From the NCBI RefSeq assembly GCF_013004105.1, contig NZ_CP053085.1, positions 682,001 through 746,000 of the forward strand: a stretch of 64,000 nt of DNA, given 5' to 3'. The notes below the pieces were generated by a model, which was given only the letters and a program-made list of their open reading frames with translations, ran no database searches and was not told the origin of the DNA. This document shows positions 1,827 to 22,530 of the stretch, in pieces; position 1 is the stretch's first letter; every line of letters begins with the position of its first letter. Made by a program: the position numbers and the translations under genes. The stretch is from Gemmatimonas groenlandica (GTDB lineage Bacteria; Gemmatimonadota; Gemmatimonadetes; Gemmatimonadales; Gemmatimonadaceae).

Positions 1827-4800
1827 ATGCGATTGTTCGGACCCGTCGCGACTGATCGTGGCGAGCGAATCCGCTCGCCACATCATTCCGTTTATCGCCG
1901 CCCACTGGCCGCTGTATGCGCCCGCCTTGCCCTGTTTGCCGGGCTCGTCGGCGCCTCCTTGCTTGCGGCTCCGCGCCTCGAAGCGCAGGCTGCCGGCGGA
2001 ACTATCTCCGGACGCGTCACCGACGCCGCCACCGGGAACCCGGTCTCCCAGGTACGTGTGCTGGTCTCCGGCACGCAGAACGGTACGCTCACCGCCGATA
2101 ACGGGCGGTACACGCTTCGCGTCACCACGACTGGTGCCGTGACGCTCGATGTGAATCGCATCGGCTACGAAGCACAGAAGATCACGGTGACGGTCGGCGC
2201 CACGCCGGTGGTTGCCGACGTCCAGATCAAGCAGGCGGCCTTCTCGCTCGCCGCCGTCGTCACCACGGTGACCGGCCAGCAGCGTAAGGTCGAACTGGCG
2301 AACGCCACGGCGCAGATCAACGTGGCCGAGAAGATCGCCGAGCTCCCCGTGTCCAACATGGGCAGCCTGCTCTCGGGTCGTACCTCCAGCGTGCAGGTCG
2401 TGCAGACCGGCGCCACCGGTACCGGCTCGCGTATCCGTATCCGCGGCCAGAACTCGTTCTCGCTCTCGAACGATCCCATCGTCGTTATCGACGGTGTGCG
2501 TGCCACCTCGACCACGAACAACGCTCTTGGCGTTGGTGGTTCGGGCCCGTCGCGTCTGGACGACATCAACCCCTCCGAAATCGAGACCATCGAAATCGTG
2601 AAGGGTCCGTCGGCCGCCACGCTATATGGCACCGAAGCGGCGAACGGCGTGGTCGTCATCACGACCAAGCGCGGTAAGTCGGGCAAGACGAACTACAGCC
2701 TGAGCGTCGAGAACGGCAAGATCGACAACACGGCTGAATATCCCGACCTGTGGACGCTGTGGGGCCGCACCGCGGCCTCGCCAACCCGGGCCGTGCCCTG
2801 CTTGCTCACGGCCGTGTCCCTCGGCACCTGTACGTCCGTGGATTCGCTCTCGCACGGCAACATCCTGAACGATCCGAACCTGACCCCGCTCAGCGACGGT
2901 AGCCGTCGGCAGTACAACCTGCAGGCGTCGGGCGGCAACGATAAGGTGCAGTTCTTCGTCTCCGGTCAGACCGAAGGCGAAACGGGCATTTACAAGCTGC
3001 CCGACAACGAAATCGCGCGACTCAAGGCGCGCCGCGGTGTGACCGCGTTGCCGTCGGACATCGTGCGCCCGAACGCCTTGGCGCGTAACAGCTTCCGCGC
3101 CAACGTGAACGCCGAGCTCCGCAAGGGACTCTTCGTGCAGGCATCCTCCGGCTACGTGAACAGCGAGCTGCGCCTGCCGCAGAACGAAGACAACGGCAAC
3201 GGCCTCATGGTGCTCGCCCTCGGCGGCCCGTGGCGCGCCGACCTGGTCGATGCGCAGGGCGATTCGCTCCGCGGCTATCGCGCCTTCATGCTGGGTGATG
3301 TGCTCTCGCAGACCACCAAGCAGGGGCTCAATCGCTTCATCAACAGCGTGTCCGCCCAGTGGACGCCGACCACGTGGCTCGCCACCCGCGCCGCGATCGG
3401 CTCGGACTACACCGGCCGCAACGACTTCTTCATCTCGAAGGTCGGTGAAGGCCCGAATACGGGCACGGTCCGTACCGGCAACATCCAGAGCCAGCGTGTC
3501 GACATCAACCAGCAGACCGCAGACTACGGTGCCACCGGCACCTTTCAGCTGACCGATTGGATGAAGTCGACCACGAGCATCGGTATGCAGTACATCCGCA
3601 ACGCCGTGGGCCTCACGTCGGGTACCGGTATCGGCCTGCCGCCGGGCGGTGTCACGGTGTCATCCGCCGCGACGCGCTCCAGCACCCAGACGTATAACGA
3701 GCGTCGCACGCTCGGCTACTACGTGGAGCAGCAGGTCGCCCTGCGCGATCGCCTGTTCATCACGGGCGGCGTGCGTCGTGACGCCGCCAGCGCCTTCGGT
3801 GCCAACACGCGCGCTGTGTACTATCCGAAGCTCGGTGCGTCGTGGCTCATCTCCGACGAGACGTTCCTTCCGCTCCCGGAGTTCGTGAACTCGCTGCGTC
3901 TGCGCGGTACGTACGGCGCGTCGGGGCAGATCCCGGGTGCGACCGACGCCGTGCGCTTCTACTCGCCGGGTCCGCTCACGACGGCCAGTGGCGATGCCCC
4001 GGCCGCATCGCTCGGCTCGCTCGGTAACGCCAACCTCAAGCCGGAATACTCGGCCGAAACCGAATTCGGTTTCGACGTGGCCATGTTCTCCGGTCGTACG
4101 AACATCGAAGTGACGTCGTATAGCAAGAGCACGACGGACGCCCTGATTCAGCGCCAGATCGCGCCGTCGCTGTCGGGTCTCACCACGCAGTTCGTAAACA
4201 TCGGCAACATCAAGAACTCGGGTGTCGAGTTCACGTGGAATCAGCGCATCATCGACCGTGACGCCGCGGCACTCTCGTTCGCGTTCACCGGTTCGACGAA
4301 CAAGAACCGGATGACGAAGCTTGGCGAAGGTGTTTCGTCGATCGCGTCGGGTAATCGCGACACGCAGCAGAATCGTCCGGGTTATCCGTTGTTCGGACTC
4401 TGGAGCCGGCCGATCAACTTCAGTGACAAGAACAACGACGGCATCATCACGTTCAACGCGAACCGGGACCTCAGCGAGCTGACGTTCGGACCCGTTGGTG
4501 GTGATACGGCGGTGTACCAGGGCAACACCTTCCCCACGCGCGAAATCGCGTTCTCGCCGACTCTTGAGCTATTCAACAAGAAGCTCAAGATTTCGGGTCA
4601 GGTGGACAGCAAGTGGGGCTTCAAGAAGTTCAACAACACGCTGCGTCACCAGTGCATGAACGGCGTGACCTGCCGCGGCCGCTACGATAAGAGCGCCTCG
4701 CTGCAGGAACAGGCCAACGCGTTGGCGACGTCGCAGGCGGTGTACACGGGCATGTTCGAGAACGGCGCGTTCACGCGCTTCCGCGAACTGTCGGCGTCGT

Positions 4801-5006
4801 ACGAAATGCCGACCAAGTGGGCCAACGCGGTTCGCGCGTCGCGCTGGAGCGTCATCGTCACCGGCCGCAATCTCGGCGTGATCACGGACTACACCGGCGT
4901 CGATCCTGAAGCCGCGCAGTCCAACAACGACGCCCGCGGTAACGAGGAGTACTTCTCCACGCCGCCTCTGCGCATCATGACGCTGCGCATGAACTTCTCC
5001 TTCTGA
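1827..5006 (+). CDS. SusC/RagA-type TonB-linked outer-membrane receptor
   Basis: 1059 residues. After an N-terminal signal (hydrophobic core near 33-48, cleavage near LEAQA), a carboxypeptidase-regulatory-like domain spans about 55-130 (starting GTISGRVTDAATG). The TonB plug follows to about residue 260, with RIRIRGQNS, NDPIVVIDGVRA and EIVKGPSAATLYG motifs. The rest is a 22-strand barrel ending in aromatic MNFSF. Such proteins import oligosaccharides or peptides across the outer membrane using TonB energy. The start has GGAG seven bases upstream. It is followed 14 bases later by its SusD partner. Substrate unknown: no glycoside hydrolase or sulfatase lies nearby. Confidence 0.95.
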   Translation: MRLFGPVATDRGERIRSPHHSVYRRPLAAVCARLALFAGLVGASLLAAPRLEAQAAGGTISGRVTDAATGNPVSQVRVLVSGTQNGTLTADNGRYTLRVTTTGAVTLDVNRIGYEAQKITVTVGATPVVADVQIKQAAFSLAAVVTTVTGQQRKVELANATAQINVAEKIAELPVSNMGSLLSGRTSSVQVVQTGATGTGSRIRIRGQNSFSLSNDPIVVIDGVRATSTTNNALGVGGSGPSRLDDINPSEIETIEIVKGPSAATLYGTEAANGVVVITTKRGKSGKTNYSLSVENGKIDNTAEYPDLWTLWGRTAASPTRAVPCLLTAVSLGTCTSVDSLSHGNILNDPNLTPLSDGSRRQYNLQASGGNDKVQFFVSGQTEGETGIYKLPDNEIARLKARRGVTALPSDIVRPNALARNSFRANVNAELRKGLFVQASSGYVNSELRLPQNEDNGNGLMVLALGGPWRADLVDAQGDSLRGYRAFMLGDVLSQTTKQGLNRFINSVSAQWTPTTWLATRAAIGSDYTGRNDFFISKVGEGPNTGTVRTGNIQSQRVDINQQTADYGATGTFQLTDWMKSTTSIGMQYIRNAVGLTSGTGIGLPPGGVTVSSAATRSSTQTYNERRTLGYYVEQQVALRDRLFITGGVRRDAASAFGANTRAVYYPKLGASWLISDETFLPLPEFVNSLRLRGTYGASGQIPGATDAVRFYSPGPLTTASGDAPAASLGSLGNANLKPEYSAETEFGFDVAMFSGRTNIEVTSYSKSTTDALIQRQIAPSLSGLTTQFVNIGNIKNSGVEFTWNQRIIDRDAAALSFAFTGSTNKNRMTKLGEGVSSIASGNRDTQQNRPGYPLFGLWSRPINFSDKNNDGIITFNANRDLSELTFGPVGGDTAVYQGNTFPTREIAFSPTLELFNKKLKISGQVDSKWGFKKFNNTLRHQCMNGVTCRGRYDKSASLQEQANALATSQAVYTGMFENGAFTRFRELSASYEMPTKWANAVRASRWSVIVTGRNLGVITDYTGVDPEAAQSNNDARGNEEYFSTPPLRIMTLRMNFSF

Positions 5007-5020
5007 GACGACCCACATCC

Positions 5021-6379
5021 ATGCGATTCTTTAATTCCGCACGCCGGGTGATCCGTCCAGTTGGCGCCATGGCTGCCGCGTTCGCGGTGGCCGGGTGCAG
5101 CTCGGACCTTCTCTCGGTCCCCACGCCTGACGTGATCGCCGAGGGTGCCATTGGCGGCAGCCTTGGCGTGACCACGCTGCGCAACGGTTCCATGCAGGAC
5201 TTCATCGTCTCGTACTCCGGCACCCAGGACGGCTTCGTCGTCGTCTCGGGCAACCTCGGCGATGAGCTGAACACCACCGACACCTTTGCCGACCGGTACA
5301 ACACCGATGGGCGCAACTCGAACGAGGTGCTCGGTGGCGCCGTGAACACCACGTACAATCAGCTGCAGCTGGCGCGCGCCGGTCTGGCCGCCGCGATCGA
5401 GAAGTGGATCGTGGTCAAGCCCACGACGGCCGCGGTCAAGGACTCACTCAGCGAGATGTACGCGATTCGCGGCTTTGCCGAGACCGCCTTCGGTGAGGGG
5501 TATTGCTCGGGCGTTCCGTTCAGTAAGGTGTCGGCGAGCGGTGACTTCGAGTACGGCGATCCGCTCACGACGGCGCAGGTCTACACCCGCGCTCTCGCGT
5601 CGATGGACACCGCGCTCACGAACGCGACGGGCGTCAACTACCGTAGTCTTGCCCAGATCGGCAAGGCGCGCGTGCTGCTCGACCAGGGTCAGTTCGCAGC
5701 GGCGGCAGCGGCCGTGAGCGGTGTGCTCACGACCTACAAGTACGTGCTCAGCCACTCGATCGCCACCGGTCGTCAGACCAACGGCCTCTGGACGGCGATG
5801 TACAATGCCGGCACGCGATACACGGTGACCACGAACGAAGGCATCAACGGTATCGACTACCTCGTGACGCCGGCTGATCCGCGTGTGCCTTGGGTGCCAA
5901 CGTTGAACCTTGGCTTCGACGGCACCAGCACGAACCTGCCGCGTCAGCAGAAGTACACGTCGCAGTCCGCGCCGTTCACGCTGGCCGACGGTATCGAAGC
6001 GCGACTCATCGAAGCGGAAGCGCGTTTGCAGGGCGCGACGCAGGGCGATCGTGATGCCGTGTTCGCGCAGCTGAATACGCTGCGTGCCACCGGTCTCAGC
6101 ACGGCCATCGCTCCGCTGGCGGCGTCGCCGACCACGCAGGCCGCGGCCGTCGACATGCTCTTCAAGGAGCGCGCCTACTGGCTGTACCTCACCGGCCATC
6201 GCCTTGGCGATATGCGCCGGCTCATCCGGCAGTACCAGCGTACGGCAGCGACGGTGTTCCCGACGGGCCCCATGCGCTATCGCCCGGGCAACAACTACGG
6301 CACCGATGTGACGTTGATTGTTCCGTTCATCGAGCGGAACAACCCGAAGTTCACCGGCTGCCTCGACCGCAACCCGTAA
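5021..6379 (+). CDS. SusD/RagB-type nutrient-binding lipoprotein
   Basis: 452 residues with a lipoprotein signal, lipobox AVAGC with Cys26. The body is alpha-helical TPR-like in character, and the C terminus has the SusD-type ending around RLGDMRRLIRQY and YRPGNNYG. SusD proteins sit on the outer-membrane surface as a lid over SusC and capture substrate. The gene starts 14 bases after susC and is surely co-transcribed; a very strong terminator follows. Sequence divergence from Bacteroidota SusD is expected, so the family call rests on the lipobox, the pairing and the C-terminal motif. Confidence 0.85.
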   Translation: MRFFNSARRVIRPVGAMAAAFAVAGCSSDLLSVPTPDVIAEGAIGGSLGVTTLRNGSMQDFIVSYSGTQDGFVVVSGNLGDELNTTDTFADRYNTDGRNSNEVLGGAVNTTYNQLQLARAGLAAAIEKWIVVKPTTAAVKDSLSEMYAIRGFAETAFGEGYCSGVPFSKVSASGDFEYGDPLTTAQVYTRALASMDTALTNATGVNYRSLAQIGKARVLLDQGQFAAAAAAVSGVLTTYKYVLSHSIATGRQTNGLWTAMYNAGTRYTVTTNEGINGIDYLVTPADPRVPWVPTLNLGFDGTSTNLPRQQKYTSQSAPFTLADGIEARLIEAEARLQGATQGDRDAVFAQLNTLRATGLSTAIAPLAASPTTQAAAVDMLFKERAYWLYLTGHRLGDMRRLIRQYQRTAATVFPTGPMRYRPGNNYGTDVTLIVPFIERNNPKFTGCLDRNP

Positions 6380-7687: not shown

Positions 7688-10240
7688 ATGAAATCCTTGG
7701 TTGCCGCTTCGGTTGGTGGCCTGTCGCTCCTCGCTGTCGCGATCATTGATCGACCTGATCCCGCCGCGAATCCGACGCTGACATCGCCGCTCGCCTCGTC
7801 TGCTTCATTCGACGCCCCGCTTTCGGATCCCCCCGTGCGAGCTTCCGCGCCGACGCGGCGCGGTCTGGGGCATCCGGTGCTATCGCCCGCCCCGTCCGCG
7901 ATCGCGCCTTCGGCGCTGACCGACGTGGTCAAGAAGACCTGCGCCGGCTGTCACAGCGAGCAGCGCAAACAGGGCAACCTGTCGCTGCAGGGCTTCGACA
8001 TGGCGAACATCAACGGCAGTCCTGAGCTCGCCGAAAAGATGATCGGCAAGCTGCGTGCAGGCATGATGCCGCCGCCGGGTCGTCCGAAGCCGGGTGGTGA
8101 CACGCTCGACGTGCTCGCCGGTACCCTCGAACGGATGATGGATGCGCGCTACGCGCTCAATCCCAATCCCGGCGCGCGCACCTTTCAGCGTCTGAATCGC
8201 GCCGAGTACGAACGGTCCGTGAAGGATCTCCTCGGCGTGGATATCAAGGCCGAATCCTGGCTGCCGCTCGATACCAAGAGCGCCAACTTCGACAACATCG
8301 CCGACGTGCAGATGCCGTCGGCCACGCTGCTCGACTCCTACCTCGACGCGGCCAGCGAGATCAGTCGCCTCGCGGTGGGCGACCCGAAGGCGAGCGTGAG
8401 CACGTCGAGCTACAAGATTGCGCGTTTGGCGTCGCAGGTTGATCCGGTCGAAGGCGCACCGGCCGGCACGCGCGGCGGAACGTCGGTGACACACACGTTC
8501 CCGGCCGATGGTGAGTACGTGTTCACGATCACGCTGCACGCCATTCCTACGGGGCAGCTGTTCGGTTCAGCCGCACCGTTCGACGAGAAGATCGAAATCT
8601 CGGTGAATGGTGAGCGCATGGCGGTGCTCGATGTCGACCGCGGCATGTCGCAGGCCGACCCGAACGGCATGGAGATCCGCACAAAGCCGATCTCGGTGCG
8701 CGCCGGTCCGCAGCGCATCACGGCCGCGTTTATCCGGACGTTCGAAGGTCCGGTGAATGACAATATCGCGCCGATCGGGCACAGCATTGCCGACACGCAG
8801 ATCGGCTCGCAGGCCGGTATCACCACGCAGTCGCACGTGCAGATGTTCGCCGTCACGGGCCCGTTCAATCCGACCGGTGTGTCGGATACGCCGAGCCGTC
8901 GTCGCATCTTCAGCTGCCGCCCGCTCACGCCGTCCGAGGCGCGTCCGTGCGCCGAGAAGATCATGACGCGGTTGGGCGCGCAGGCGTATCGTCGCCCGCT
9001 CGCGCCGAACGATCTGAAGGGACTGCTCACGTTCTATGACGCCGGGGCCAAGGACGGCGGTTTCGAACTCGGTATTCGCACCGCCGTCGAAGCGTTGCTG
9101 GCCAGCCCGCACTTCATCTTCCGTGTGGAAGAGATGCCGGCGGTGTCGAAGCCGGGCTCGCGCGTGGCGGTGAATGGCCTCGATCTGGCCTCGCGTCTTT
9201 CGTTCTTCGTGTGGGGCGCTCCGCCCGACTCGCAGCTCGTATCGCTGGGCCGTCGCGGTCTGCTGACTGACACCACGGTACTGATCGCACAGACCAAGCG
9301 CATGCTCGCCGACAAGCGCAGCAGCGCCCTGTCCACGCGCTTCGCGGCGCAGTGGCTGCGGTTGTCGGACATCGAAAAAGTGCATCCTGATGCGCTGCAG
9401 TATCCCGACTTTCGGGAACAGCTGGCGGACGACATGGTGCAGGAAACCGAGCTGTTCTTCGATCATCTCGTGCGCGAGAACCGCAGCTTCCTCGACCTCT
9501 ATACGGCCAACTGGACGTACGTGAACGAGGATCTCGCGAAGCATTACGGCATCCCGGGCGTGGTCGGTACCGACTTCCGTCGCGTCGAGTATCCGGCCAA
9601 CTCGGGCCGCGTCGGCATCTTCGGGCATGGCAGTGTGCTCACGCTGACGTCGCATGCGAATCGCACGTCGCCGGTGTTGCGCGGCAAGTGGGTGATGGAA
9701 GTGCTCATGGGCACGCCGCCGCCCGCGCCGCCGCCGAACGTGCCCGATCTCGAGAAGACGGGTGACAGCAAGGAAGGTCGCATGCTCACCACGCGCGAGC
9801 GTATGGAAGAGCACCGCGCCAATCCGAGTTGCCGGTCGTGTCATGTGTTCATCGATCCCATCGGCCTGGCCATGGACAACTTCGATGTGAACGGCCAGTG
9901 GCGCATTCGCGAGAACGGCACCCCGCTCGACACCCGTGGCGACTTCTACGACGGTACGAAGATCACCAACGCGCTCGAACTGCAGAAGGCGCTGCTCAAG
10001 CGGCCCACGCCGCTGGTGCGCAACTTCACGCAGAACCTGATGGCGTATGCCTTGGGCCGTCGTGTGGAGTACTACGATCATCCCGCGGTGCGGAAGATCG
10101 AAGCGCAGGTGAAGGCGAACAACTATCGCATGCAGGACTTCATCGTCGGTGTCGTAAAGAGCGACGCGTTCCGGCTGAAGAAAGTGATGGAGCAGGCTGA
10201 CTCGGGGACGAAGGGCGTTTCGGCGCCCGGCGTTCGCTGA
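7688..10240 (+). CDS. DUF1587/1592/1588/1585-family cytochrome-like protein
   Basis: 850 residues with an N-terminal signal or anchor. Haem motif CAGCH lies at residues 85-89. The family signature FQRLNRAEYERSVKDLLG (DUF1587) is near 173-190. A large central region follows (DUF1595/1592), then DUF1588 with CRSCHVFIDPIGLAMDNFD around residue 715 and a C-terminal DUF1585. These proteins are typical of Planctomycetota, Myxococcota and Gemmatimonadota and are thought to be exported haem proteins of unknown reaction. It is nearly always paired with DUF1552, as here. GGAG eight bases upstream supports the ATG at 7688. First gene of a three-gene operon. Confidence 0.9.
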   Translation: MKSLVAASVGGLSLLAVAIIDRPDPAANPTLTSPLASSASFDAPLSDPPVRASAPTRRGLGHPVLSPAPSAIAPSALTDVVKKTCAGCHSEQRKQGNLSLQGFDMANINGSPELAEKMIGKLRAGMMPPPGRPKPGGDTLDVLAGTLERMMDARYALNPNPGARTFQRLNRAEYERSVKDLLGVDIKAESWLPLDTKSANFDNIADVQMPSATLLDSYLDAASEISRLAVGDPKASVSTSSYKIARLASQVDPVEGAPAGTRGGTSVTHTFPADGEYVFTITLHAIPTGQLFGSAAPFDEKIEISVNGERMAVLDVDRGMSQADPNGMEIRTKPISVRAGPQRITAAFIRTFEGPVNDNIAPIGHSIADTQIGSQAGITTQSHVQMFAVTGPFNPTGVSDTPSRRRIFSCRPLTPSEARPCAEKIMTRLGAQAYRRPLAPNDLKGLLTFYDAGAKDGGFELGIRTAVEALLASPHFIFRVEEMPAVSKPGSRVAVNGLDLASRLSFFVWGAPPDSQLVSLGRRGLLTDTTVLIAQTKRMLADKRSSALSTRFAAQWLRLSDIEKVHPDALQYPDFREQLADDMVQETELFFDHLVRENRSFLDLYTANWTYVNEDLAKHYGIPGVVGTDFRRVEYPANSGRVGIFGHGSVLTLTSHANRTSPVLRGKWVMEVLMGTPPPAPPPNVPDLEKTGDSKEGRMLTTRERMEEHRANPSCRSCHVFIDPIGLAMDNFDVNGQWRIRENGTPLDTRGDFYDGTKITNALELQKALLKRPTPLVRNFTQNLMAYALGRRVEYYDHPAVRKIEAQVKANNYRMQDFIVGVVKSDAFRLKKVMEQADSGTKGVSAPGVR

Positions 10241-10304
10241 TCATTCGTAGAACTCATTCGCAAACGATTAGCACCCCCGTTCACGATACCGGAGACGCCA
10301 CACC

Positions 10305-11693
10305 ATGTATTTTCTCAGCGGCAAGGCGATGCCCCGCCGGCAGTTCCTGCAGAACCTCAGTGCCACGATCGCGTTGCCGTATCTGGATGCGATGATCCCG
10401 ACCGGACGTGGCTCGCGCATCCTCGCCAACAAGGCGCCTCGCCTCGTCGCCATCGAAATGGTGCACGGTGCGGCCGGCTGCAACGAACTGGGCTCGAAGC
10501 TCAACCTCTGGTCGCCTGCGGCGGCCGGCAAGCAGTTCGACCTCGCGCCTACCGCGATGTCGTCGCTCGAGCAGTATCGCGACTATCTCACGATCATCAG
10601 CAACACCGACGTTCGTGAAGCGGAACCCTCGTCGCCGAACGAAATCGGCGGTGACCATTTTCGCTCCAGCGCGACGTATCTCACGCAGGCACACGCCAAG
10701 CAGACGGAAGGCTCGGATGTGAAGGTCGGCACGTCGCTCGATCAGTTGTATGCGAAGCGCTTCGGTCAGGACACGCCGATCCCGTCCATGCAGCTGTGCA
10801 TCGAGAACGTCGACCAGGCGGGCGGGTGCGCGTACGGCTATGCCTGCGTGTACACCGACTCCATCAGCTGGTCGTCACCCACTGAGCCGCTGCCCGTCAT
10901 TCGCGATCCGCGCGTGGCGTTCGAGAAGCTGTTCGGTGTCGGTGGCACCAGTTCCGAGCGGGCCGAGCGCCGTCGCACGCGTCGCAGCATTCTCGACTTC
11001 GTGTCGGGCGAGATGTCGTCGCTCAAGGTGAACCTCGGGCCTGACGACCGTCATCGTCTCGACAAGTATCTCGAGGACATCCGCGAAGTCGAGCGCCGCA
11101 TTCAGCGCGTGGAAGCGCGCAACCAGAGCGGCGATCCGCGCGAGTTGCCGGAAGCTCCGGCCGGCGTGCCCGATTCGTTCGCCGAGCACGTCAAGCTGAT
11201 GTTCGACATTCAGGCGCTGGCGTTCGCGGCGGATATCACGCGCGTGTTTTCGTTCAAGATGGGTCGCGACGGCTCCAGCCGTACGTACCCGGAGAGCGGC
11301 ACGGACAAGCCGTTCCATCCGGCCTCGCACCATGGCGGTACCGAGCGCGGCGTGAAGGACTTCAACATGATCAACAAGTACCACGTCTCGATGCTTCCGT
11401 ACTTCCTGGACAAGCTGAAGAACATCCAGGAAAGCGACGGCAACATGCTCGACAAGACGATGATCATCTACGGCTCGCCGATGGGTGACTCGAACCTGCA
11501 CAACCATCGCCGCTGCCCGCTCATCCTGTTGGGCAAGGCCGAAGGACAGCTGGCCGGCAACCTGCACATCAAGGCGCCGGATGGCACGCCGATGGCGAAC
11601 GCGATGCTCAGCATGATGCACACGCTCGGCCTGAACGATCAGACGAAGTTCGGTGACGCCACGGGTGCCCTCAACTTGAACTCCTATGCCTAA
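10305..11693 (+). CDS. DUF1552 family protein with Tat-type signal
   Basis: 462 residues starting MYFLSGKAMPRRQFLQNL, the conserved DUF1552 N terminus with a twin-arginine motif (RRQFL, about residues 11-15), so folding before export is likely. The body is related to the DUF1501/alkaline-phosphatase-like superfamily: HPASHHGG near residue 345 and IYGSPMGDSNLHNHR near residue 390 hold conserved His and Asp. Its function is not established. It lies 64 bases after the DUF1592 gene and overlaps the next gene by 8 bases, so the three are one transcription unit. Confidence 0.9.
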   Translation: MYFLSGKAMPRRQFLQNLSATIALPYLDAMIPTGRGSRILANKAPRLVAIEMVHGAAGCNELGSKLNLWSPAAAGKQFDLAPTAMSSLEQYRDYLTIISNTDVREAEPSSPNEIGGDHFRSSATYLTQAHAKQTEGSDVKVGTSLDQLYAKRFGQDTPIPSMQLCIENVDQAGGCAYGYACVYTDSISWSSPTEPLPVIRDPRVAFEKLFGVGGTSSERAERRRTRRSILDFVSGEMSSLKVNLGPDDRHRLDKYLEDIREVERRIQRVEARNQSGDPRELPEAPAGVPDSFAEHVKLMFDIQALAFAADITRVFSFKMGRDGSSRTYPESGTDKPFHPASHHGGTERGVKDFNMINKYHVSMLPYFLDKLKNIQESDGNMLDKTMIIYGSPMGDSNLHNHRRCPLILLGKAEGQLAGNLHIKAPDGTPMANAMLSMMHTLGLNDQTKFGDATGALNLNSYA

Positions 11694-13584
11694 GTCCGGA
11701 TTGCGGAGCGGCTATCGCCTCGCGGTGATCGCGTCGGTGCTCGGTGCCTCGCTGGCACTGGGCGCGGCGCGGATGCCGACGGACGAATCGCCGGTGGCCG
11801 ACGCCGTCATGCGGGGTGACAGCGCTCGCGTGCGCGTGCTGATCAAGCAGGGACTCGATGTCAACGCCGCGCAGGCCGACGGCATGACCGCGTTGCATTG
11901 GGCGGCGCAGCGTGGCGATGCCGGTGGTGCGCAGATGCTGATGTACGCCGGCGCGCGCGTTGATGCCGTCACGCGCAACGGCAACTACACGCCGCTGCAC
12001 TTGGCGGCGCGCAACGGACGCGCGGCGGCGGTGAAGGCGTTGCTGGCGGCTGGCGCCGATGTGAATGCGGTGACGACGACGGGCGCGGTGACGGCATTGC
12101 ACTTTGCGTCATCGAACGGCGATGCGGCCACGGTCACGGCGCTACTCGACAAGGGCGCGCCGGTGGACACGCGTGAAGGCGCGTGGGGACAGACGCCGCT
12201 CATGTGGGCGGCCTCGGGCAATCGCTTGGCCGCACTCGATATTCTGATCAAGCGCGGCGCGAATCTCGAACTGGCGTCGAAGATCGAGGACATCTCGGCC
12301 AAGGAAAAGGCCGAGCGCGCGATGCTGGTGCAGCGCGGTCGCCGGGTGGCGGCGATGAAGGCGGCCGATGCGGCGCCGACGGTGGCAGCGGCTGGCCCTG
12401 GTGTTGCGGCAGGTGCTGGTCCTGCTGCGGCGGCTGCGACTGCTGTTCCGGCGACGCCGCGTGTAGCGGTTGCAGTGCCGGCTCCCGCGGCCGCCGCACC
12501 GGCGGCGCCCGGTGCACCGGTCAAGCGCGATTCCGCGCCCACGCCGCCACCGCAGACGGGCTTCAACAATCGTGGCCCGACCTATGGCGACTTGATCGGC
12601 AACAAGGGGGGACTCACGGCACTGCTGTTCGCGGTGCGTGATGGCAGTGACGAGTGCGTCGCGCGGTTGCTCGAAGCCGGTGCAAAGCTCAATCACGTCA
12701 GCGAGGGCGATCATACCAGCCCGCTGCTCATGGCGACGATCAACGGCCGCTTCGACATGGCCAAGATGCTGCTCGAGAAGGGCGCCGATGTGAAGCTGCA
12801 GAGCGACGCCGGGGCGACGCCGCTGTACGCCACGATCAACGTGCAGTGGGCGGCCAAGTCGCTCTATCCGCAACCGACCGCGCAGTTGCAGCAGACCACG
12901 TCATACCTCGACCTGATGGAGTCCTTCCTCAAGGCCGGCGCCGACGTGAACGTGCGCCTCAAGAAGCACCTGTGGTTCATGTCGTACAACTTCGATCTGC
13001 TGGGCGTGAACACAGTGGGCGCCACGGCGTTCTGGCGTGCCGCGTACGGTACCGATGTGCCGGCGATGAAGCTGCTCGTGAAGTACGGTGCCGATATTAC
13101 GATCCCGACGATCAAGCCGACGGGCCGTCTGCCCGGCGACGATTCAGGCGGAGATGATGCGGCGGCCGGCGGCAAGGATCCGTCGGGGCTCGCGCCGATT
13201 CCCGATGGCGGTCCGGGCGTGTATCCGATTCACGCGGCCACCGGCGTGGGCTACGGTGAAGGCTTCGCGGCCAACTCGCACCGGCATGCGCCGGACGCGT
13301 GGATGGCGTCGGCCAAGTATCTGATCGAAGAGCTCAAGGTCGATGTGAACATGCGCGACCATAACGGCTACAACGCCGTTCATCATGCGGCGGCCCGCGG
13401 CGACAATGAGCTGATCACGTATCTCGCCAGCAAAGGCGGGGACATCATGGCGATCAGCCGTCGTGGCCAGACCACCACCGACATGGCGAATGGTCCGGTG
13501 CAGCGCATTCCTCCCTTCCTCGAGACGGTAGACCTACTCGTCAAGATGGGCGCCAAGAACAGCAACAAGTGCAAGTCCTGCTAG
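11686..13584 (+). CDS. Exported ankyrin-repeat protein
   Basis: 632 residues. An N-terminal hydrophobic signal (LAVIASVLGASLALGAA) precedes ankyrin repeats from about residue 30 to 215 (motifs such as DGMTALHWAAQRGD and NYTPLHLAARNG). An Ala/Pro-rich linker runs from about 225 to 285, and a second ankyrin block continues to the end (NGYNAVHHAAARGD). The last residues are CKSC, which could bind metal, haem or a disulfide partner. Ankyrin folds bind proteins. Because the start overlaps the DUF1552 stop by 8 bases, a structural partnership with the DUF1592/DUF1552 pair is plausible (inference). Confidence 0.88.
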   Translation: MPKSGLRSGYRLAVIASVLGASLALGAARMPTDESPVADAVMRGDSARVRVLIKQGLDVNAAQADGMTALHWAAQRGDAGGAQMLMYAGARVDAVTRNGNYTPLHLAARNGRAAAVKALLAAGADVNAVTTTGAVTALHFASSNGDAATVTALLDKGAPVDTREGAWGQTPLMWAASGNRLAALDILIKRGANLELASKIEDISAKEKAERAMLVQRGRRVAAMKAADAAPTVAAAGPGVAAGAGPAAAAATAVPATPRVAVAVPAPAAAAPAAPGAPVKRDSAPTPPPQTGFNNRGPTYGDLIGNKGGLTALLFAVRDGSDECVARLLEAGAKLNHVSEGDHTSPLLMATINGRFDMAKMLLEKGADVKLQSDAGATPLYATINVQWAAKSLYPQPTAQLQQTTSYLDLMESFLKAGADVNVRLKKHLWFMSYNFDLLGVNTVGATAFWRAAYGTDVPAMKLLVKYGADITIPTIKPTGRLPGDDSGGDDAAAGGKDPSGLAPIPDGGPGVYPIHAATGVGYGEGFAANSHRHAPDAWMASAKYLIEELKVDVNMRDHNGYNAVHHAAARGDNELITYLASKGGDIMAISRRGQTTTDMANGPVQRIPPFLETVDLLVKMGAKNSNKCKSC

Positions 13585-14609: not shown

Positions 14610-15791
14610 TTACTTCCCCGTCGGCCAGACCACGCCTTGGTTGCCACGCTTCACCTGACCGACGCCCTTGTAGCGGAACTTCTGCAGGCGCTTGCCCTCG
14701 TACGTTTCGGTCGTGTAGATGTTGCCCTTGGAGTCGGTCGCGATGCTGTGCACCGCGAAGAACTGTCCGGGCTGACGCCCGCCGTCGCCGAAGCTGGTGA
14801 GGATTTCCAGCGACTGCCGGTCCATCACGTAGACGCGCTCGTTCTTGCCGTCGGCGAGGTACATGTACTTCTGCGCCGGGTCCTTCGAGAAGGCGATATC
14901 CCACACCGAACCGTCGCCTCGGGTGGCTGGCGCGATGCGGACTTCCTTCACGAACTTACCGTTCTTCTGGAACACCTGGATGCGATCGTTGGGCCGGTCG
15001 CAGACATACACGAGACCATCGGTGGTCGGCTCGGCGCAGTGCACCGGGTTGCGGAACTGCTGCACGAGCGGCGCCGAGGGATCGTACGGGGGCAGGCGCG
15101 CGTCGTCCGGCTTGTTGCCGTAGGCGCCCCAGAAGCGCTTGAGCTTCCCGCTGTTCATGTCGAGCACGGCCACACGCTTGTTGCCGTAGCCGTCGGCCAC
15201 GTAGGCCTCACCGGCCTTGGGGTCGAAGGTGATCTTGGCCACGCGACCGAAGTGCGTGCTGTCGTTGCTGGCCGATCCCTGGCCGGGCGTGCCGATCTGC
15301 TGCAGGAACTTCCCCTCGTGCGAGAACTTCAGGATGTGCGAGTCCGTGGGGCCGTTGCCGCCGATCCAGATATTGTCCTTGTCGTCCACCGCCACACCGT
15401 GATTAGAGCCGGGCCACACGTACCCCTCGCCCGGTCCGCCCCAGCCCTTCACTAGGTTGCCGTCGGGGTCGAACTCGAGAATCGGCGGGGCCGAGGCGCA
15501 GCATTCGCCGATGGGCGGCTTGGCGTTCAGTCCCGCCTCGGTGCGCTGATTGAGCGTGGAATCACCGCGGTGGATGATGAACACGTGGTCGCGACTGTCG
15601 ATGCCGACGCCGATCACAGAGCCCAGAATCCAGTGGTTGGGCATCGGCTTGGGCCACACGGGATCGACTTCGAACCGCGGCGCCTGCACCGTCTGCCGGT
15701 CGGTGGCGCGGAGCGACGCTTGCGCGACACCCAGGGCACCGACCGTCAGGATCAGCGCCGTCCAGCGCAGTGAATTGCGCTTCCTCGTCAT
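14610..15791 (-). CDS. Exported NHL-repeat (6-bladed beta-propeller) protein
   Basis: 393 residues with a signal peptide (LRWTALILTVGALGVAQA). The body is a six-bladed NHL propeller: repeated cores such as DSRDHVFIIHR, DDKDNIWIGG, DPKAGEAYVADGYGNKRV, VYVCDRPNDRIQVF and DSKGNIYTTE. Two extra cysteines (ECCA) are near residue 90. Such propellers bind small ligands or partners, or act as peptidylglycine-lyase-like enzymes; the function here is unknown. Four in-frame ATGs (15791, 15797, 15803, 15815) are clustered; GGAG lies six bases before 15791 and before 15803. It diverges from the HupE-cytochrome gene and resembles the propeller at 21271. Confidence 0.85.
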   Translation of the reverse strand: MTRKRNSLRWTALILTVGALGVAQASLRATDRQTVQAPRFEVDPVWPKPMPNHWILGSVIGVGIDSRDHVFIIHRGDSTLNQRTEAGLNAKPPIGECCASAPPILEFDPDGNLVKGWGGPGEGYVWPGSNHGVAVDDKDNIWIGGNGPTDSHILKFSHEGKFLQQIGTPGQGSASNDSTHFGRVAKITFDPKAGEAYVADGYGNKRVAVLDMNSGKLKRFWGAYGNKPDDARLPPYDPSAPLVQQFRNPVHCAEPTTDGLVYVCDRPNDRIQVFQKNGKFVKEVRIAPATRGDGSVWDIAFSKDPAQKYMYLADGKNERVYVMDRQSLEILTSFGDGGRQPGQFFAVHSIATDSKGNIYTTETYEGKRLQKFRYKGVGQVKRGNQGVVWPTGK

Positions 15792-15942
15792 CAGCATCTC
15801 CATCAGGAACTCCATCAGGGGTAGGACCCCGTGTGGATTCCGGGGCGGGATGGTATGTTCGTGCAATTGCGGCTGTGCCGCGAATCCCTCCTTAGTAACG
15901 CGCCTCATCCCGCCTGTCCAGAGAATCGCCGCCCGCGTCGCG

Positions 15943-17877
15943 ATGCCCTTTCTCTTATCCTTGCTCGCTCTGCTGTTGATCATCGTTCCGGGACATCGTG
16001 CGCAGGCGCACGAGATCCCGGCCACGGTCGTCGTACGCACGTTCGTGAAGCCAGACGGCGCGCGGGTGCGCGTGCTGGTGCGGGTGCCGCTGGAGAGCAT
16101 GCGTGATGTGTCGTTCCCCACGCGTGGTGCGGGGTTGCTGGATGTGGCGCGAGCCGAACCCACGCTGCGCGATGCCGCCCAGTTGTGGATCGCCGATGGC
16201 TTGCGCTTGCGCGTGGGCGATCGGGTGCTGGGCGCCCCGCAGGTGATGGCGGTGCGTGCCGCGTTGCCCAGCGATCGCGCCTTCGATGCGTACGACAGCG
16301 CCTTGCGCGCGGTGCAGACGTTACCGCTGCCGGCGACCACTGATATTCCGGTGGGGCAGGTGCTGCTCGACGTGCTGCTCGACGTGCCCGCGAACGGCGT
16401 GATCGTAGCCGACGACGCCGACTTGGTATTGGAGCCCAAGTGGGCGCACCTTGGGCTCCGCACCACCACCGTGGTCACGCTGCTGCTGAGCACCGGCGCC
16501 GAACGGGTGATCACCTTCGACGGCGATCCGGGCGAGGTGCGTCTCGACCCGCGCTGGTGGCATGCCGCGTGGCGTTTCGTGCTGACCGGCATGTCGCACA
16601 TGTTCAGCGGCATCGATCATCTGCTGTTCGTGCTGTGCCTGGTGCTGCCCATTCGTGCCATGCGGCCCTTGGTCGGTGTGGTCACCGCGTTCACGATCGC
16701 GCACTCGATTACGCTGGTGGCATCGGCGATGGGCTTCGCACCCACGGCATTGTGGTTCCCGCCGCTGGTCGAGGTGCTGATCGCCGGCTCCATCGTGTAC
16801 ATGGCGCTCGAGAACATCGTGGGCGCGCGCGTGCAACAGCGTTGGATGATCGCGTTCGCGTTCGGACTGGTACACGGCTTCGGATTCTCCGCGGCGCTGC
16901 GCGATCAGCTGCAGTTTGCCGGTTCGCATTTGCTCACGTCGCTCGCGGCGTTCAACGTGGGCGTCGAACTGGCGCAGCTGGCGGTGTTGGCGGTTTCGAT
17001 ACCGGCGCTGCGCTGGGTGTTCGCGCGCGCGGTGCCCGAGCGCATGGGCGTAATTATCGCGTCGGCGTTCATCACGCACGAGGCGTGGCATTGGCTGCTC
17101 GAGCGCGCGGCCACGTTGCGCACGTACCGGTTCACGCCTCCGGTGCTCGATGCGCTGTTTCTGGCGGATGTCATGCGGGGAGCGATGGGAGTGTTGATCG
17201 TGATCGGGGTGGCGTGGGGGATTTCTGGTGTGATGCGCAAGCTGTCGGGCGCGCGCACCGTGTCGAAGTCGGCCGCCACCGGACTGTTGCTGGTGTGCGC
17301 GGCCGCGCTGTTCGCGCCGCGCGGGAGCCAAGCGCAGGCGCCCAAGTCAACCACGCAAGGTGTGTACACGGCGGCGCAGGCTGCGAAGGGCAAGAACGTG
17401 TTCAACGGCGCTTGCCTAGGCTGTCACACCACGGCGACGCACATGGGGCCTGCGTTCGAGCTGAAGTGGTTCGGGCGACCGTTGTGGGACCTGTATGGCT
17501 ATCTGAGCAACCTGATGCCCAAGTCGGCACCGGGCACGCTTACCGAAGAGGAGTACGTGTGGGTCACCGCGTACATCCTGAAGCTGAACGGCATGCCGGC
17601 GGGGAGGGTGGAGTTGAACGCCGAGCCGGATTGGTTGAAGACGGTGCGTATCGAGCCGGTGCCGAACAACGCGCCGAACAACGCGCCGAACAACGCGCCG
17701 AACAACGCGCCGAACAACGCGCCGAACAACGCGCCGAACAACGCGCCGAACAACGCGCCGAACAACGCGCCGAACAACGCGCCGAACAACGCGCCGAACA
17801 ACGTGCCGCATCAGGCGCCGTCGTCATTGGAAGATCGTTGGGAAGTACGCAGGTTCAGACTCGTCCCGCAGTTTTGA
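15943..17877 (+). CDS. HupE/UreJ-like membrane protein fused to a cytochrome c domain
   Basis: 644 residues from ATG 15943. A signal peptide (ends QAHEIPA) leads into an extracytoplasmic domain to about residue 195. A HupE/UreJ-type membrane domain follows, with the histidine-rich MSHMFSGIDHLLFVLCL, FTIAHSITL, LVHGFGFSAAL and ITHEAWHW motifs (metal-transport signature) and about seven helices. After a last helix (about 440-460), a cytochrome c domain carries CLGCH near 490. The tail consists of twelve NNAP-type tetrapeptides encoded by a 12-bp tandem repeat. HupE proteins move Ni or other metals; fusion to cytochrome c is uncommon. The gene ends ten bases before a PQQ dehydrogenase, so metal supply or electron transfer for that enzyme is inferred. 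Confidence 0.85.
   Translation: MPFLLSLLALLLIIVPGHRAQAHEIPATVVVRTFVKPDGARVRVLVRVPLESMRDVSFPTRGAGLLDVARAEPTLRDAAQLWIADGLRLRVGDRVLGAPQVMAVRAALPSDRAFDAYDSALRAVQTLPLPATTDIPVGQVLLDVLLDVPANGVIVADDADLVLEPKWAHLGLRTTTVVTLLLSTGAERVITFDGDPGEVRLDPRWWHAAWRFVLTGMSHMFSGIDHLLFVLCLVLPIRAMRPLVGVVTAFTIAHSITLVASAMGFAPTALWFPPLVEVLIAGSIVYMALENIVGARVQQRWMIAFAFGLVHGFGFSAALRDQLQFAGSHLLTSLAAFNVGVELAQLAVLAVSIPALRWVFARAVPERMGVIIASAFITHEAWHWLLERAATLRTYRFTPPVLDALFLADVMRGAMGVLIVIGVAWGISGVMRKLSGARTVSKSAATGLLLVCAAALFAPRGSQAQAPKSTTQGVYTAAQAAKGKNVFNGACLGCHTTATHMGPAFELKWFGRPLWDLYGYLSNLMPKSAPGTLTEEEYVWVTAYILKLNGMPAGRVELNAEPDWLKTVRIEPVPNNAPNNAPNNAPNNAPNNAPNNAPNNAPNNAPNNAPNNAPNNAPNNVPHQAPSSLEDRWEVRRFRLVPQF
17665..17808 (+). repeat. 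12-bp coding tandem repeat, 12 copies
   Basis: The unit AACAACGCGCCG is repeated eleven times without a single mismatch, then once with one change (GTG for GCG). It encodes Asn-Asn-Ala-Pro units at the C terminus of the HupE-cytochrome fusion. Perfect identity suggests recent slippage expansion; every copy change keeps the frame. Confidence 0.98.
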
Positions 17878-17887
17878 CGGAGATCAG

Positions 17888-20098
17888 ATGATGCAACGCA
17901 GGACCAGACGGCTGGCCGGATTTGCGCTTATCGCGGGCGCCGCGGTTGTCGGCGCCACGTTCACGCGTGTCGCTCCCACGGTGGCGCAACAGGGCAAGCC
18001 ACTCGTGCGCGGCAACGCGTACGGCGAATGGCGCCATTGGGGAGCAGACCAATGGAGCACGCGCTACTCGCCGCTCGAGCAGGTGAATGCCAGCAACTTC
18101 GATTCGCTGCAGGTGGCGTGGGAGTGGAAGGCCAGTGCGTTCGGCAAGGACGAGTACTATCGCACCACGCCGATCTTCGCCAATGGTCGACTGTTCACGG
18201 TGGCCAGCACGCGTCGCGTGGCTACCGCGCTTGATCCGGAAACGGGCGAGACGTTGTGGATGTATCGCCTGGACGAAGGCATTCGCTGGCAGAAGGCGCC
18301 GCGTCAGTTCGCCGGTCGTGGCTTGTCGTACTGGACCGACGGCCGCATTGAACGCGTGCTGTTGGTCACGCCGGGCTATCACCTGATTTCGCTCGATGCG
18401 AAAACGGGGAAGCCCGATCCGCTGTTCGGCAAGAACGGTGTGGTCGACTTGATGGACGGATTGGGCTACCCCATGGTGCCGCTGGCGGTCGATGATTCAG
18501 GTCCGCTCATCATCTCCGACGCTGCGCCGATGCGCAAAGCAAAGCCGGGCGAAACGTGGGACCCGGTCAAGAAGATCGGTGCCGATGGTACCGTCGGTCT
18601 CGACCCGGCGGCCGGACAGATCGCCGCCAGTTCGCCGCCGATGGTGGTCGGCAACATGTTGGTGGTCGGCAACTCGTCGATTCACGGCTACTACCCGATT
18701 CGCACGCACAACGTCACGGGTACCGTGCGCGGCTTCGACATCCGCACCGGACGTCAGGCGTGGAAGTTCAACCTCGTGCCGCAGCCCGGTGAGTTCGGTG
18801 CCGACACCTGGAAGAACGGCTCGAAGAACGGCACCAAGGGTGTCGGCAAGAACGACGCGTGGGCGCCGTACGCGGCCGACGAACAGCTCGGCCTCGTGTA
18901 CATCCCGGTGGGCATGCCGCTGATGGACGAATACGGTGGACATCGCCCAGGCAACAACCTGTACGGCAACTCGCTCGTGGCGCTCGACGCGAAGACCGGT
19001 CTTCGCAAGTGGCACTTCCAGATGGTGCATCACGACATCTGGGACTACGACACGCCGATGGCGCCGAACCTGATGGACATCACGGTGGACGGCAAGCCGC
19101 GTAAGGTGATTGCGCAGACCACCAAGCAAGGCTGGGTGTACACGTTTGATCGTGCCACTGGCGAGCCGATCTGGCCGATGGTGGAAACGCCGGTGATGAA
19201 GAGCGACGTGCCGGGCGAGATTTCGTCGCCCACGCAGCCGATTCCGAGCAAGCCAGCGGCGTACTCTCAGCAGGGTCTCGTCGAGGCCGATCTCATCGAC
19301 TACACGCCGGCCATCAAGGACTCGGCGCTCAAGATGGCCAAGCGCTGCCGCATGGGGCCGTACTTCATTCCGCCGGCCGCGGCCGACGGCAAGGGGAGCA
19401 CCGGACTCAAGTGCTCGTGGTACGCGCCCGGTGCCAGCGGTGGCGTGAACATCGACGGTGGCGCCACGGTGGACGTGGAAACCGGCATGCTGTACGTGGC
19501 GTCGATCACGGGCATGAGCACCGCGCAGCTGCAGAAGGATCCGTGCTCGGAGTTCGACTACAGCTCCCCGCGCAACAGCTGCGGCCTGCTCGGCGCGTTG
19601 CCGGCACCGGCTGGCTACGAAGGTCCCGTGCGTGAGCGCGGTGGTGACTTCGCCGCGCGCGCCGGCGGCTCGATCATCGGTGGCGTGTCGATCGTGAAGC
19701 CCAAGGAATACGGTGGCATCACGGCGTACAACATGAAGAGCGGCGACAAGTCGTGGTGGGCACCGAACGCCGGCATGCTGAAAGTCACGAGCCGCGATCC
19801 GCTGTTTGCCGGCGTCACGTTGCCGCCGCAGGGTGGACGCGGACAGGCGCAGGCAATGACGACCAAGACGCTGCTGATCTACGGCACCGGCCGCAGCGGT
19901 GGCGCGCCGGGTGAGGCACCGAAGCTGTACGCGCTCGACAAGACCACCGGCAAACAAGTGGGTGCGGTGGAGATCGCCTCGAAGACGACGGCGGTGCCGA
20001 TGACGTTCCTGCACAAGGGGCGGCAGTACATCGTGTTCGCGAGCGGCGCGGAGAACGAAACGCAGCTCACGGCGTTGGCGCTCCCGGTGAAGAAGTAA
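17888..20098 (+). CDS. PQQ-dependent dehydrogenase (quinoprotein)
   Basis: 736 residues with an N-terminal signal or anchor (LAGFALIAGAAVVGATF). The eight-bladed PQQ propeller begins at GEWRHWGADQWSTRYSPLEQ, a family hallmark. HHDIWDYDTP near residue 380 contains the catalytic-site Asp region, and ITAYNMKSGDKSWW is a typical W-docking blade. It oxidises sugars or alcohols in the periplasm and passes electrons to a quinone or cytochrome. It lacks its own CxxCH, and the gene directly upstream supplies a cytochrome domain, so they may work as a pair (inference). GGAG five bases before the ATG supports the start. A strong terminator follows. Confidence 0.92.
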   Translation: MMQRRTRRLAGFALIAGAAVVGATFTRVAPTVAQQGKPLVRGNAYGEWRHWGADQWSTRYSPLEQVNASNFDSLQVAWEWKASAFGKDEYYRTTPIFANGRLFTVASTRRVATALDPETGETLWMYRLDEGIRWQKAPRQFAGRGLSYWTDGRIERVLLVTPGYHLISLDAKTGKPDPLFGKNGVVDLMDGLGYPMVPLAVDDSGPLIISDAAPMRKAKPGETWDPVKKIGADGTVGLDPAAGQIAASSPPMVVGNMLVVGNSSIHGYYPIRTHNVTGTVRGFDIRTGRQAWKFNLVPQPGEFGADTWKNGSKNGTKGVGKNDAWAPYAADEQLGLVYIPVGMPLMDEYGGHRPGNNLYGNSLVALDAKTGLRKWHFQMVHHDIWDYDTPMAPNLMDITVDGKPRKVIAQTTKQGWVYTFDRATGEPIWPMVETPVMKSDVPGEISSPTQPIPSKPAAYSQQGLVEADLIDYTPAIKDSALKMAKRCRMGPYFIPPAAADGKGSTGLKCSWYAPGASGGVNIDGGATVDVETGMLYVASITGMSTAQLQKDPCSEFDYSSPRNSCGLLGALPAPAGYEGPVRERGGDFAARAGGSIIGGVSIVKPKEYGGITAYNMKSGDKSWWAPNAGMLKVTSRDPLFAGVTLPPQGGRGQAQAMTTKTLLIYGTGRSGGAPGEAPKLYALDKTTGKQVGAVEIASKTTAVPMTFLHKGRQYIVFASGAENETQLTALALPVKK

Positions 20099-21270: not shown

Positions 21271-22338
21271 CTACTTCTTCTCGTAGCGCTTCAGCGCCTT
21301 CTGCCCCACCTCGGCGCCGTAGATGTTTCCAGCCGCATCGACCGCAACTCCCTCAGCCGAACTCGTGCTGGGGGCTGTGTCGTCGGGGTCGGGAATGAAC
21401 GCCGTCACCTTGCCGTCGCGCGCGCTGCCGATGCGCATGCCGCGCTTCCACGCCACGTGCGGCGGGTTCACCGAGCCCGACTCCGAGTCGGCTACGTAGA
21501 TCACATCGTTCTTGTCGATGTAGATGCCGCTCGGGCGGCTGAACTGGTACCACGTGTCGAGCACCTTGAAGTCCTGATCGACGATGATGATGCGGTCGTT
21601 GCCGCGATCGCCGACAAACAGCCGCCCCTTCGAGTCGAAAGCCAGCGCGTGCGGCTGATCGAGTTCGGTCGCGCCTTTGCCCCACGAGCCCCACGTCTTC
21701 AGCAGCTTTCCGCTCTTGTCGAACTTGAACACGCGCGCATTCGACGTGTTGCGCGACGAATGGCCTTCGGCCACGAAGATGTCGCCGTTCGGTGCGGTGA
21801 TCACGGCGTTGGGCTGCCAGAAGTACGACGTGTCGCGCTGGCCGCCGCCGGGCGTGCCGAGCGTCATGAGCAACTCGCCCTTGGGCGAAAACTTGTAGAT
21901 CTGGTGGCCCTTGCCCACGTTGGCCGGCGCGGTGGCGGCGGCGCCGAGTGTGCAGGCGCAGTCGACCACCCACACATTGCCGTCTCTGTCTACGTGGATG
22001 CCGTGCGGCGACAGGATCATGCCGGCGCCGAAGCTGGTGACGAGGGTGCCCTTGTCGTCGAACTTCAGCACTGACGGTAGCGGCGAGCCCGCGCAGTTGT
22101 TCACGCCGCACCGTTCAGCGACCCAGATGCTCTTGCCGTCCTTGTCGATGGCCACCGCGCTGGTGGAGCCCCAAGTGCGCCCCTCGGGCATCTTGGCCCA
22201 ACCGGCTACCGTGCGATACGGATTCGGCAGGTCGTTGATGGCCGGCATCGTCGCGGATGACTGTGCGGAGAGTTGCGCGGGAGCGTGCATGCAGGCGCTC
22301 GACGAGGCGAGCGCGAGCAGGAGGGCGAGACGGCGCAT
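21271..22338 (-). CDS. NHL-repeat beta-propeller lipoprotein
   Basis: 355 residues. The signal ends in a lipobox-like SSSAC (Cys16). Six propeller blades follow, with repeated cores DKDGKSIWVAERC, DRDGNVWVVDCAC, PNGDIFVAEGHSSR, DSKGRLFVGDRGNDRI and DKNDVIYVADSESG. It is a paralogue of the propeller at 14610-15791. Cys pairs in blades one and two could form disulfides. Function unknown; ligand sensing or a lyase-like activity are family possibilities. The longer frame upstream to 22656 is rejected because it has no signal and enters the intergenic region. Confidence 0.85.
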   Translation of the reverse strand: MRRLALLLALASSSACMHAPAQLSAQSSATMPAINDLPNPYRTVAGWAKMPEGRTWGSTSAVAIDKDGKSIWVAERCGVNNCAGSPLPSVLKFDDKGTLVTSFGAGMILSPHGIHVDRDGNVWVVDCACTLGAAATAPANVGKGHQIYKFSPKGELLMTLGTPGGGQRDTSYFWQPNAVITAPNGDIFVAEGHSSRNTSNARVFKFDKSGKLLKTWGSWGKGATELDQPHALAFDSKGRLFVGDRGNDRIIIVDQDFKVLDTWYQFSRPSGIYIDKNDVIYVADSESGSVNPPHVAWKRGMRIGSARDGKVTAFIPDPDDTAPSTSSAEGVAVDAAGNIYGAEVGQKALKRYEKK

Positions 22339-22530
22339 GAGGGCAGGGGCGGGAGGTGGGGCGGACGGCGTCGCGAATTCGGTCGTGCCGTCGGGCTTTT
22401 GTAAGTTGCAGGTGTAGTGCGGGGCACGCCAGATGATGGCAGTCGAATAGAAACGGTGACGGACGCGACGGCGCGACGTGGCATGATGTGCGATGCGTAC
22501 TTGCCAACCCCGCGCCGAGGATCGCAGCTT

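Follow-up and report, generated by a model that had tools for sequence, protein, structure and literature searches.

A fused permease–cytochrome gene and its surroundings

The window analysed here is a stretch of 64,000 nucleotides from the complete 5.18-Mb genome of Gemmatimonas groenlandica, and a MAG named Gemmatimonas phototrophica (L038) is among its closest relatives. An ORF on the forward strand (15943–17877; 644 aa) holds a metal permease and a haem-c domain within one open frame, matching HupE_UreJ_2 (PF13795; residues 212–360; 143 bits against a curated cut-off of 24.5) and Cytochrome_CBB3 (PF13442; residues 478–545; 34 bits against a cut-off of 27; haem motif CLGCH). Its stop codon lies 10 bp from the ATG of a 736-aa dehydrogenase (PF01011; 520 bits) that has no CxxCH (Table 1). 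The domain matches and the 10-bp gap bear out the original prediction of a HupE/UreJ-type domain and a haem-c domain in one polypeptide, followed ten bases downstream by a PQQ dehydrogenase without a haem of its own. The repeat units in the C-terminal tail of the fused protein match one another at 99%, and in close relatives the unit occurs just once or twice, in degenerate form, indicating that the (APNN)n tail is a recent expansion.

Table 1. Features of the fused gene and its direct neighbours, in window coordinates; a hyphen before the last residue marks the predicted cleavage point
Feature	Position	Strand	Basis
Signal peptide of the HupE–cytochrome protein, ending AQA-H	15943..16008	+	Translation; H[DE]xP behind a signal-like segment wherever the N-terminus is intact
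Extracytoplasmic Ang-type domain, starting at His1	16009..16548	+	AlphaFold2 model, best PDB match 9GCE
HupE_UreJ_2 permease helices	16549..17247	+	PF13795 E 7.7e-42; alignment A2
Internal signal-peptide-like segment SKSAATGLLLVCAAALFAPRGSQA-Q	17263..17334	+	A-Q in 25/25 fused proteins; signal peptide of separate cytochromes at the same place
Cytochrome c domain, CLGCH at 17413-17427	17374..17577	+	PF13442 E 3.7e-8
12-bp tandem repeat, 12.3 copies, (APNN)n tail	17661..17808	+	Tandem Repeats Finder
PQQ-type dehydrogenase, soluble, glucose-dehydrogenase-like	17888..20098	+	PF01011 E 1.2e-155; aligned to E. coli Gcd
Divergent NHL six-bladed propeller, amidating-lyase-like	14610..15800	-	VIA and Foldseek against PAL; adjoins HupE phylum-wide

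The divergent gene upstream of the permease encodes a propeller that aligns to the amidating lyase PAL (3FVZ) over 294 residues with a VIA Z of 33.3 and a Foldseek E of 2e-19, at 25% identity. Generic NHL propellers also score high against it (Z about 31), and the PAL assignment therefore rests on residues as much as on fold. His134, His254, His351, Arg78, and Tyr205, which correspond to the three His and the catalytic Arg and Tyr of PAL, are conserved in 47–48 of 48 rows, and conservation is higher in the propeller than in HupE (mean column identity, 61% versus 50%). The protein is probably an exported, metal-dependent lyase. Two leads for its function were rejected, a PHM-type copper monooxygenase as its general partner (weak PF03712 matches in only 3 of 21 genomes) and methylguanidine lyase, which is not a PAL homologue.

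Several other genes in the window deserve mention. Upstream of a SusC/SusD-like pair (1827–6379) is a separate gene for a small cytochrome c (893–1369; 158 aa), which, like the fused domain, is of the PF13442 type. Genes for a PSD-domain cytochrome protein, a DUF1552 (HXXSHH) protein, and an ankyrin protein stand in a row (7688–13584); this block is found next to the module both in the window genus and in a locus from another family (L121). A second NHL propeller gene (21271–22500, reverse strand) belongs to a type often found downstream of the dehydrogenase or, in other families, directly after HupE.

Distribution of the gene pairs and of the fused state

Across 60 Gemmatimonadaceae loci the gene order is propeller (divergent), HupE, cytochrome, and dehydrogenase, with HupE and cytochrome in one ORF in 19 loci and in two ORFs in 37; the remaining four (L065, L075, L076, and L078) have the propeller–HupE pair without an adjoining cytochrome and dehydrogenase. 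The dehydrogenase is directly next in 53 loci, three more reach a contig edge, and L078 leaves only 1.4 kb, such that the order is kept in 53 of the 56–57 loci with a contig long enough to judge; in all 53 with the dehydrogenase beside HupE, the cytochrome lies between them. The neighbourhood is thus conserved in other genomes, a point on which the original prediction depended. Because the same fused ORF occurs in 25 loci (from the 60-locus set, from further loci read from genome contigs, and from the window) and because the order is so widely kept, chance or assembly error is ruled out as the source of the fusion.

Elsewhere in the phylum, 18 of 20 loci outside the Gemmatimonadaceae have the propeller gene divergent from HupE, while a cytochrome and dehydrogenase follow HupE in only one and lie beyond the propeller, on its other side, in one more. 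The propeller–HupE arrangement is the older pair, as it is kept in 18 of these 20 loci and the cytochrome and dehydrogenase are rarely there. The cytochrome and dehydrogenase form a second conserved gene pair, separate from the first, that is intact away from HupE in G054 and G075 and, by coordinates, in G011. A relative on the Sphingobium plasmid pSRL1 likewise has the cytochrome, and no HupE, beside its dehydrogenase.

The co-occurrence of HupE with PQQ dehydrogenases, which the original prediction offered as a check, holds within the family: each of the 51 family genomes in the phylum draw that encode a HupE protein (E ≤ 1e-30) also encodes the dehydrogenase (E ≤ 1e-150), a count that, like the number of repeated fusions, is inflated by shared ancestry. 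In three of the 51 the two genes are not adjacent, being on different contigs in G054 and G029 and about 12 kb apart in G011. Two fragmented family genomes (G343 and G075) have a dehydrogenase match and no HupE match, and outside the family most HupE carriers lack the dehydrogenase. The co-occurrence supports a link between HupE and the dehydrogenase inside the Gemmatimonadaceae.

On a tree of 82 HupE domains, with support from SH-aLRT only, the fused label needs four changes and the starred branches force four. The four fused lineages, unequal in size, are the window genus, L056–L058, L054–L055, and L060, which sits on a long branch. These counts do not separate gain from loss of the fusion, and the unfused order is the more widespread state. 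Literature searches returned nothing on a HupE–cytochrome fusion or on HupE with PQQ. The repeated fusion provides a natural test of coupling between metal uptake and periplasmic oxidation.

Fusion joint, probable cargo metal and likely electron acceptor

In all 25 fused proteins, which come from lineages kept apart by the tree, the last HupE helix is separated from the haem domain by a basic stretch, then a hydrophobic core and an A-Q step, with A at position -1 in every protein and A, S, L, V, T, I, or M at position -3. Cytochromes encoded by separate genes start with a signal peptide at the position that matches this joint. Most simply, the cytochrome would have kept its old signal peptide, which would serve to bring the haem domain through the membrane. 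Not every internal signal segment is cleaved by signal peptidase; at this A-Q step signal peptidase I may still cut, giving a permease and a free cytochrome. As the internal signal peptide is retained in all 25 proteins, the two halves may not stay joined, and its retention is a warning against taking a gene fusion for a fused protein.

At the N-terminus, the signal peptide ends in AQA and is followed by HEIPA, such that His is the first residue after it. An H[DE]xP motif after a signal-like segment is present in all Gemmatimonadota loci examined with an intact N-terminus, with AxA absent before the His in some distant ones. Sequence searches with the HupE–cytochrome protein or its profile found no true PDB relative, and it was a fold search with the AlphaFold2 model of the mature protein (mean pLDDT 89.9) that returned 9GCE, the structure of a Cu-bound Ang-1 domain from a HupE/UreJ-2 protein, as the best PDB match (Foldseek E 9.6e-5; VIA alignment of the N-terminal domain, Z 11.1, rmsd 2.8, 133 residues). 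In the HupE part, His197, Asp203, His204, His232, His289, His357, and His361 (mature numbering) are identical in all 44 proteins of alignment A2, whose rows were picked by the His-after-signal-peptide motif, so that 44 of 44 for that motif is true by construction.

The Ang-1 domain has a Kd of 74 nM for Cu2+ and 220 nM for Ni2+, and its proposed role is metal capture for the permease (PMC12537917). The aligned Gemmatimonadota proteins have no conserved Asn at mature position 41, the copper ligand Asn41 of RbAng-1a; this residue is described in the same paper as poorly conserved within RbAng-1a’s own family (PMC12537917). Given the N-terminal His after the signal peptide and the Ang-1-like fold, the cargo is probably Cu/Ni rather than Ca or a lanthanide, and by its relationship to the Ang-1 protein the window protein is most likely a Cu/Ni-type permease.

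The dehydrogenase shares 30% identity with E. coli Gcd, and its W325, D386, and K413 align with Trp404, Asp466, and Lys493 of Gcd, which belong to the PQQ site. The region of Gcd His775 is missing, and glucose is therefore not a safe substrate guess; around the Ca/lanthanide ligand positions the alignment is poor and the site cannot be mapped with confidence. Assignment to the membrane glucose dehydrogenases (TIGR03074; 307 bits against a cut-off of 833; no N-terminal membrane domain) or to acido-empty-quinoprotein group A (TIGR04528; 203 bits against a cut-off of 650) was rejected. Since the cytochrome and dehydrogenase stay together when unlinked from HupE, in Sphingobium as well, the cytochrome very likely accepts the enzyme's electrons. 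The proposal that the fusion takes the electrons of the dehydrogenase is accordingly well supported as regards the cytochrome, although the two halves of the fusion may separate.

PqqC is present in 15 of 148 family genomes and in none of the 60 module carriers. No module carrier has a PqqE match over the cut-off of TIGR02109, a model that matches radical-SAM relatives everywhere and for which only matches over the cut-off were counted. The window genome encodes a full-length PqqU-like TonB-dependent receptor (L174; G000:C1:401745-403682; 30% identity to E. coli PqqU; E 1.4e-69), and PqqU has been reported as widespread in Gemmatimonadetes (PMC12124388). Based on the lack of PqqC in module carriers, this receptor, and the wide occurrence of PqqU, the PQQ of the dehydrogenase is probably imported. 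Three further PQQ-type dehydrogenases are encoded in the window genome, which lacks PqqC (G000:C1:945022-946821, 2373885-2375693, and 4358374-4360284).

Proposed explanation, alternatives and known systems

The explanation that best accounts for these observations, and to which we give about an even chance of being right as a whole, is that a single transcript provides both a Cu/Ni permease and an acceptor for the dehydrogenase's electrons through the joining of two gene pairs, the chain probably being cut and the PQQ probably scavenged. In the pair of Ang–HupE permease and divergent amidating-lyase-like propeller, the mature N-terminal His of the Ang domain would capture a transition metal (probably Cu2+ or Ni2+), which the domain would then hand to HupE for import. 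In the pair of c-type cytochrome and soluble PQQ dehydrogenase, electrons from the enzyme would pass to the cytochrome. The stop codon between HupE and the cytochrome would have been lost in the window genus and a few other lineages, turning the former signal peptide of the cytochrome into an internal transmembrane segment. Through this segment the haem domain would reach the periplasm; there, signal peptidase I probably cleaves the segment and frees the cytochrome next to the dehydrogenase.

The internal segment may instead stay uncut, with the cytochrome tethered to the permease as a membrane-anchored acceptor and the permease serving mainly as an anchor or doing an unrelated job of its own. 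We consider this rather unlikely: the single open frame in 25 loci, a segment hydrophobic enough for a helix, and four changes of the fused label, all four forced, as if joining were favoured, are consistent with a tether, but a mere anchor would have no need of the A-Q step and permissive -3 residue conserved in every fused protein. It is distinctly unlikely that the neighbourhood has no functional meaning, the two pairs being independent, their transcript shared by descent, and the fusion a neutral accident eased by adjacency. Each pair is indeed found without the other, HupE outside the family is usually without the dehydrogenase, and the old signal peptide has been kept at the fusion boundary; against this stand the 51 of 51 HupE-bearing family genomes with a dehydrogenase, three of them non-adjacent, and the repetition of the fusion, both counts being inflated by shared ancestry.

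Metal and electrons could also be coupled directly. The tethered cytochrome might relay electrons from the dehydrogenase to the metal bound by the N-terminal His of its own polypeptide, and the metal so reduced (e.g., from Cu2+ to Cu+) could be imported by HupE. We find this very improbable; if true, it would amount to reductive copper/iron uptake in a bacterial form, fed with electrons from the oxidation of sugars or alcohols, and would explain the repeated HupE–cytochrome fusion. The original prediction, in which HupE supplies the dehydrogenase with Ca or a lanthanide and the attached haem domain receives the electrons, now appears extremely improbable. It would fit the adjacency and co-occurrence of HupE and dehydrogenase, but HupE proteins import metal to the cytosol, whereas quinoproteins acquire theirs in the periplasm. 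HupE is, moreover, common without a dehydrogenase, most genomes outside the family have none adjoining it, and its phylum-wide neighbour is the amidating-lyase-like propeller. The N-terminal domain, for its part, matches Ang-1, a relative that binds Cu and Ni (PMC12537917).

The window protein is closest to the Ang-1/Ang-2 HupE/UreJ-2 ‘anglerase’ permeases, with which it shares a signal peptide, a His directly after it, an Ig-like beta-sandwich, and a PF13795 permease with conserved His. These His1–HupE permeases were described only in 2025, and the present loci extend them by a phylum-wide Gemmatimonadota branch that has the amidating-lyase-like propeller as its fixed neighbour and, within a single family, is linked to a periplasmic redox chain. 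Anglerases were described from Pseudomonadota and Actinomycetota, and the text consulted mentions neither a cytochrome fusion nor PQQ or propeller neighbours (PMC12537917), whereas the window protein, from a Gemmatimonadota host, has a C-terminal haem-c domain; the second copper ligand of anglerases, Asn41, is not conserved in the Gemmatimonadota proteins. The propeller resembles PAL in fold and in its His, Arg, and Tyr positions, but at 25% identity and in genomes without a general PHM-type copper monooxygenase. As in other quinoprotein–cytochrome c pairs (e.g., XoxF/XoxG and the Sphingobium pSRL1 genes), a soluble PQQ-type dehydrogenase stands beside a small c-type cytochrome; here, however, translation yields the cytochrome as the C-terminal portion of a metal permease, and the enzyme, unlike XoxF, is glucose-dehydrogenase-like. 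The arrangement of the joint recalls fbcH of Bradyrhizobium, in which cytochromes b and c1 are reportedly made as one precursor and then cut: a membrane protein and a haem-c protein share a reading frame with an internal signal sequence between them, though the partner here is a metal permease and cleavage at the motif retained in all 25 fused proteins is putative.
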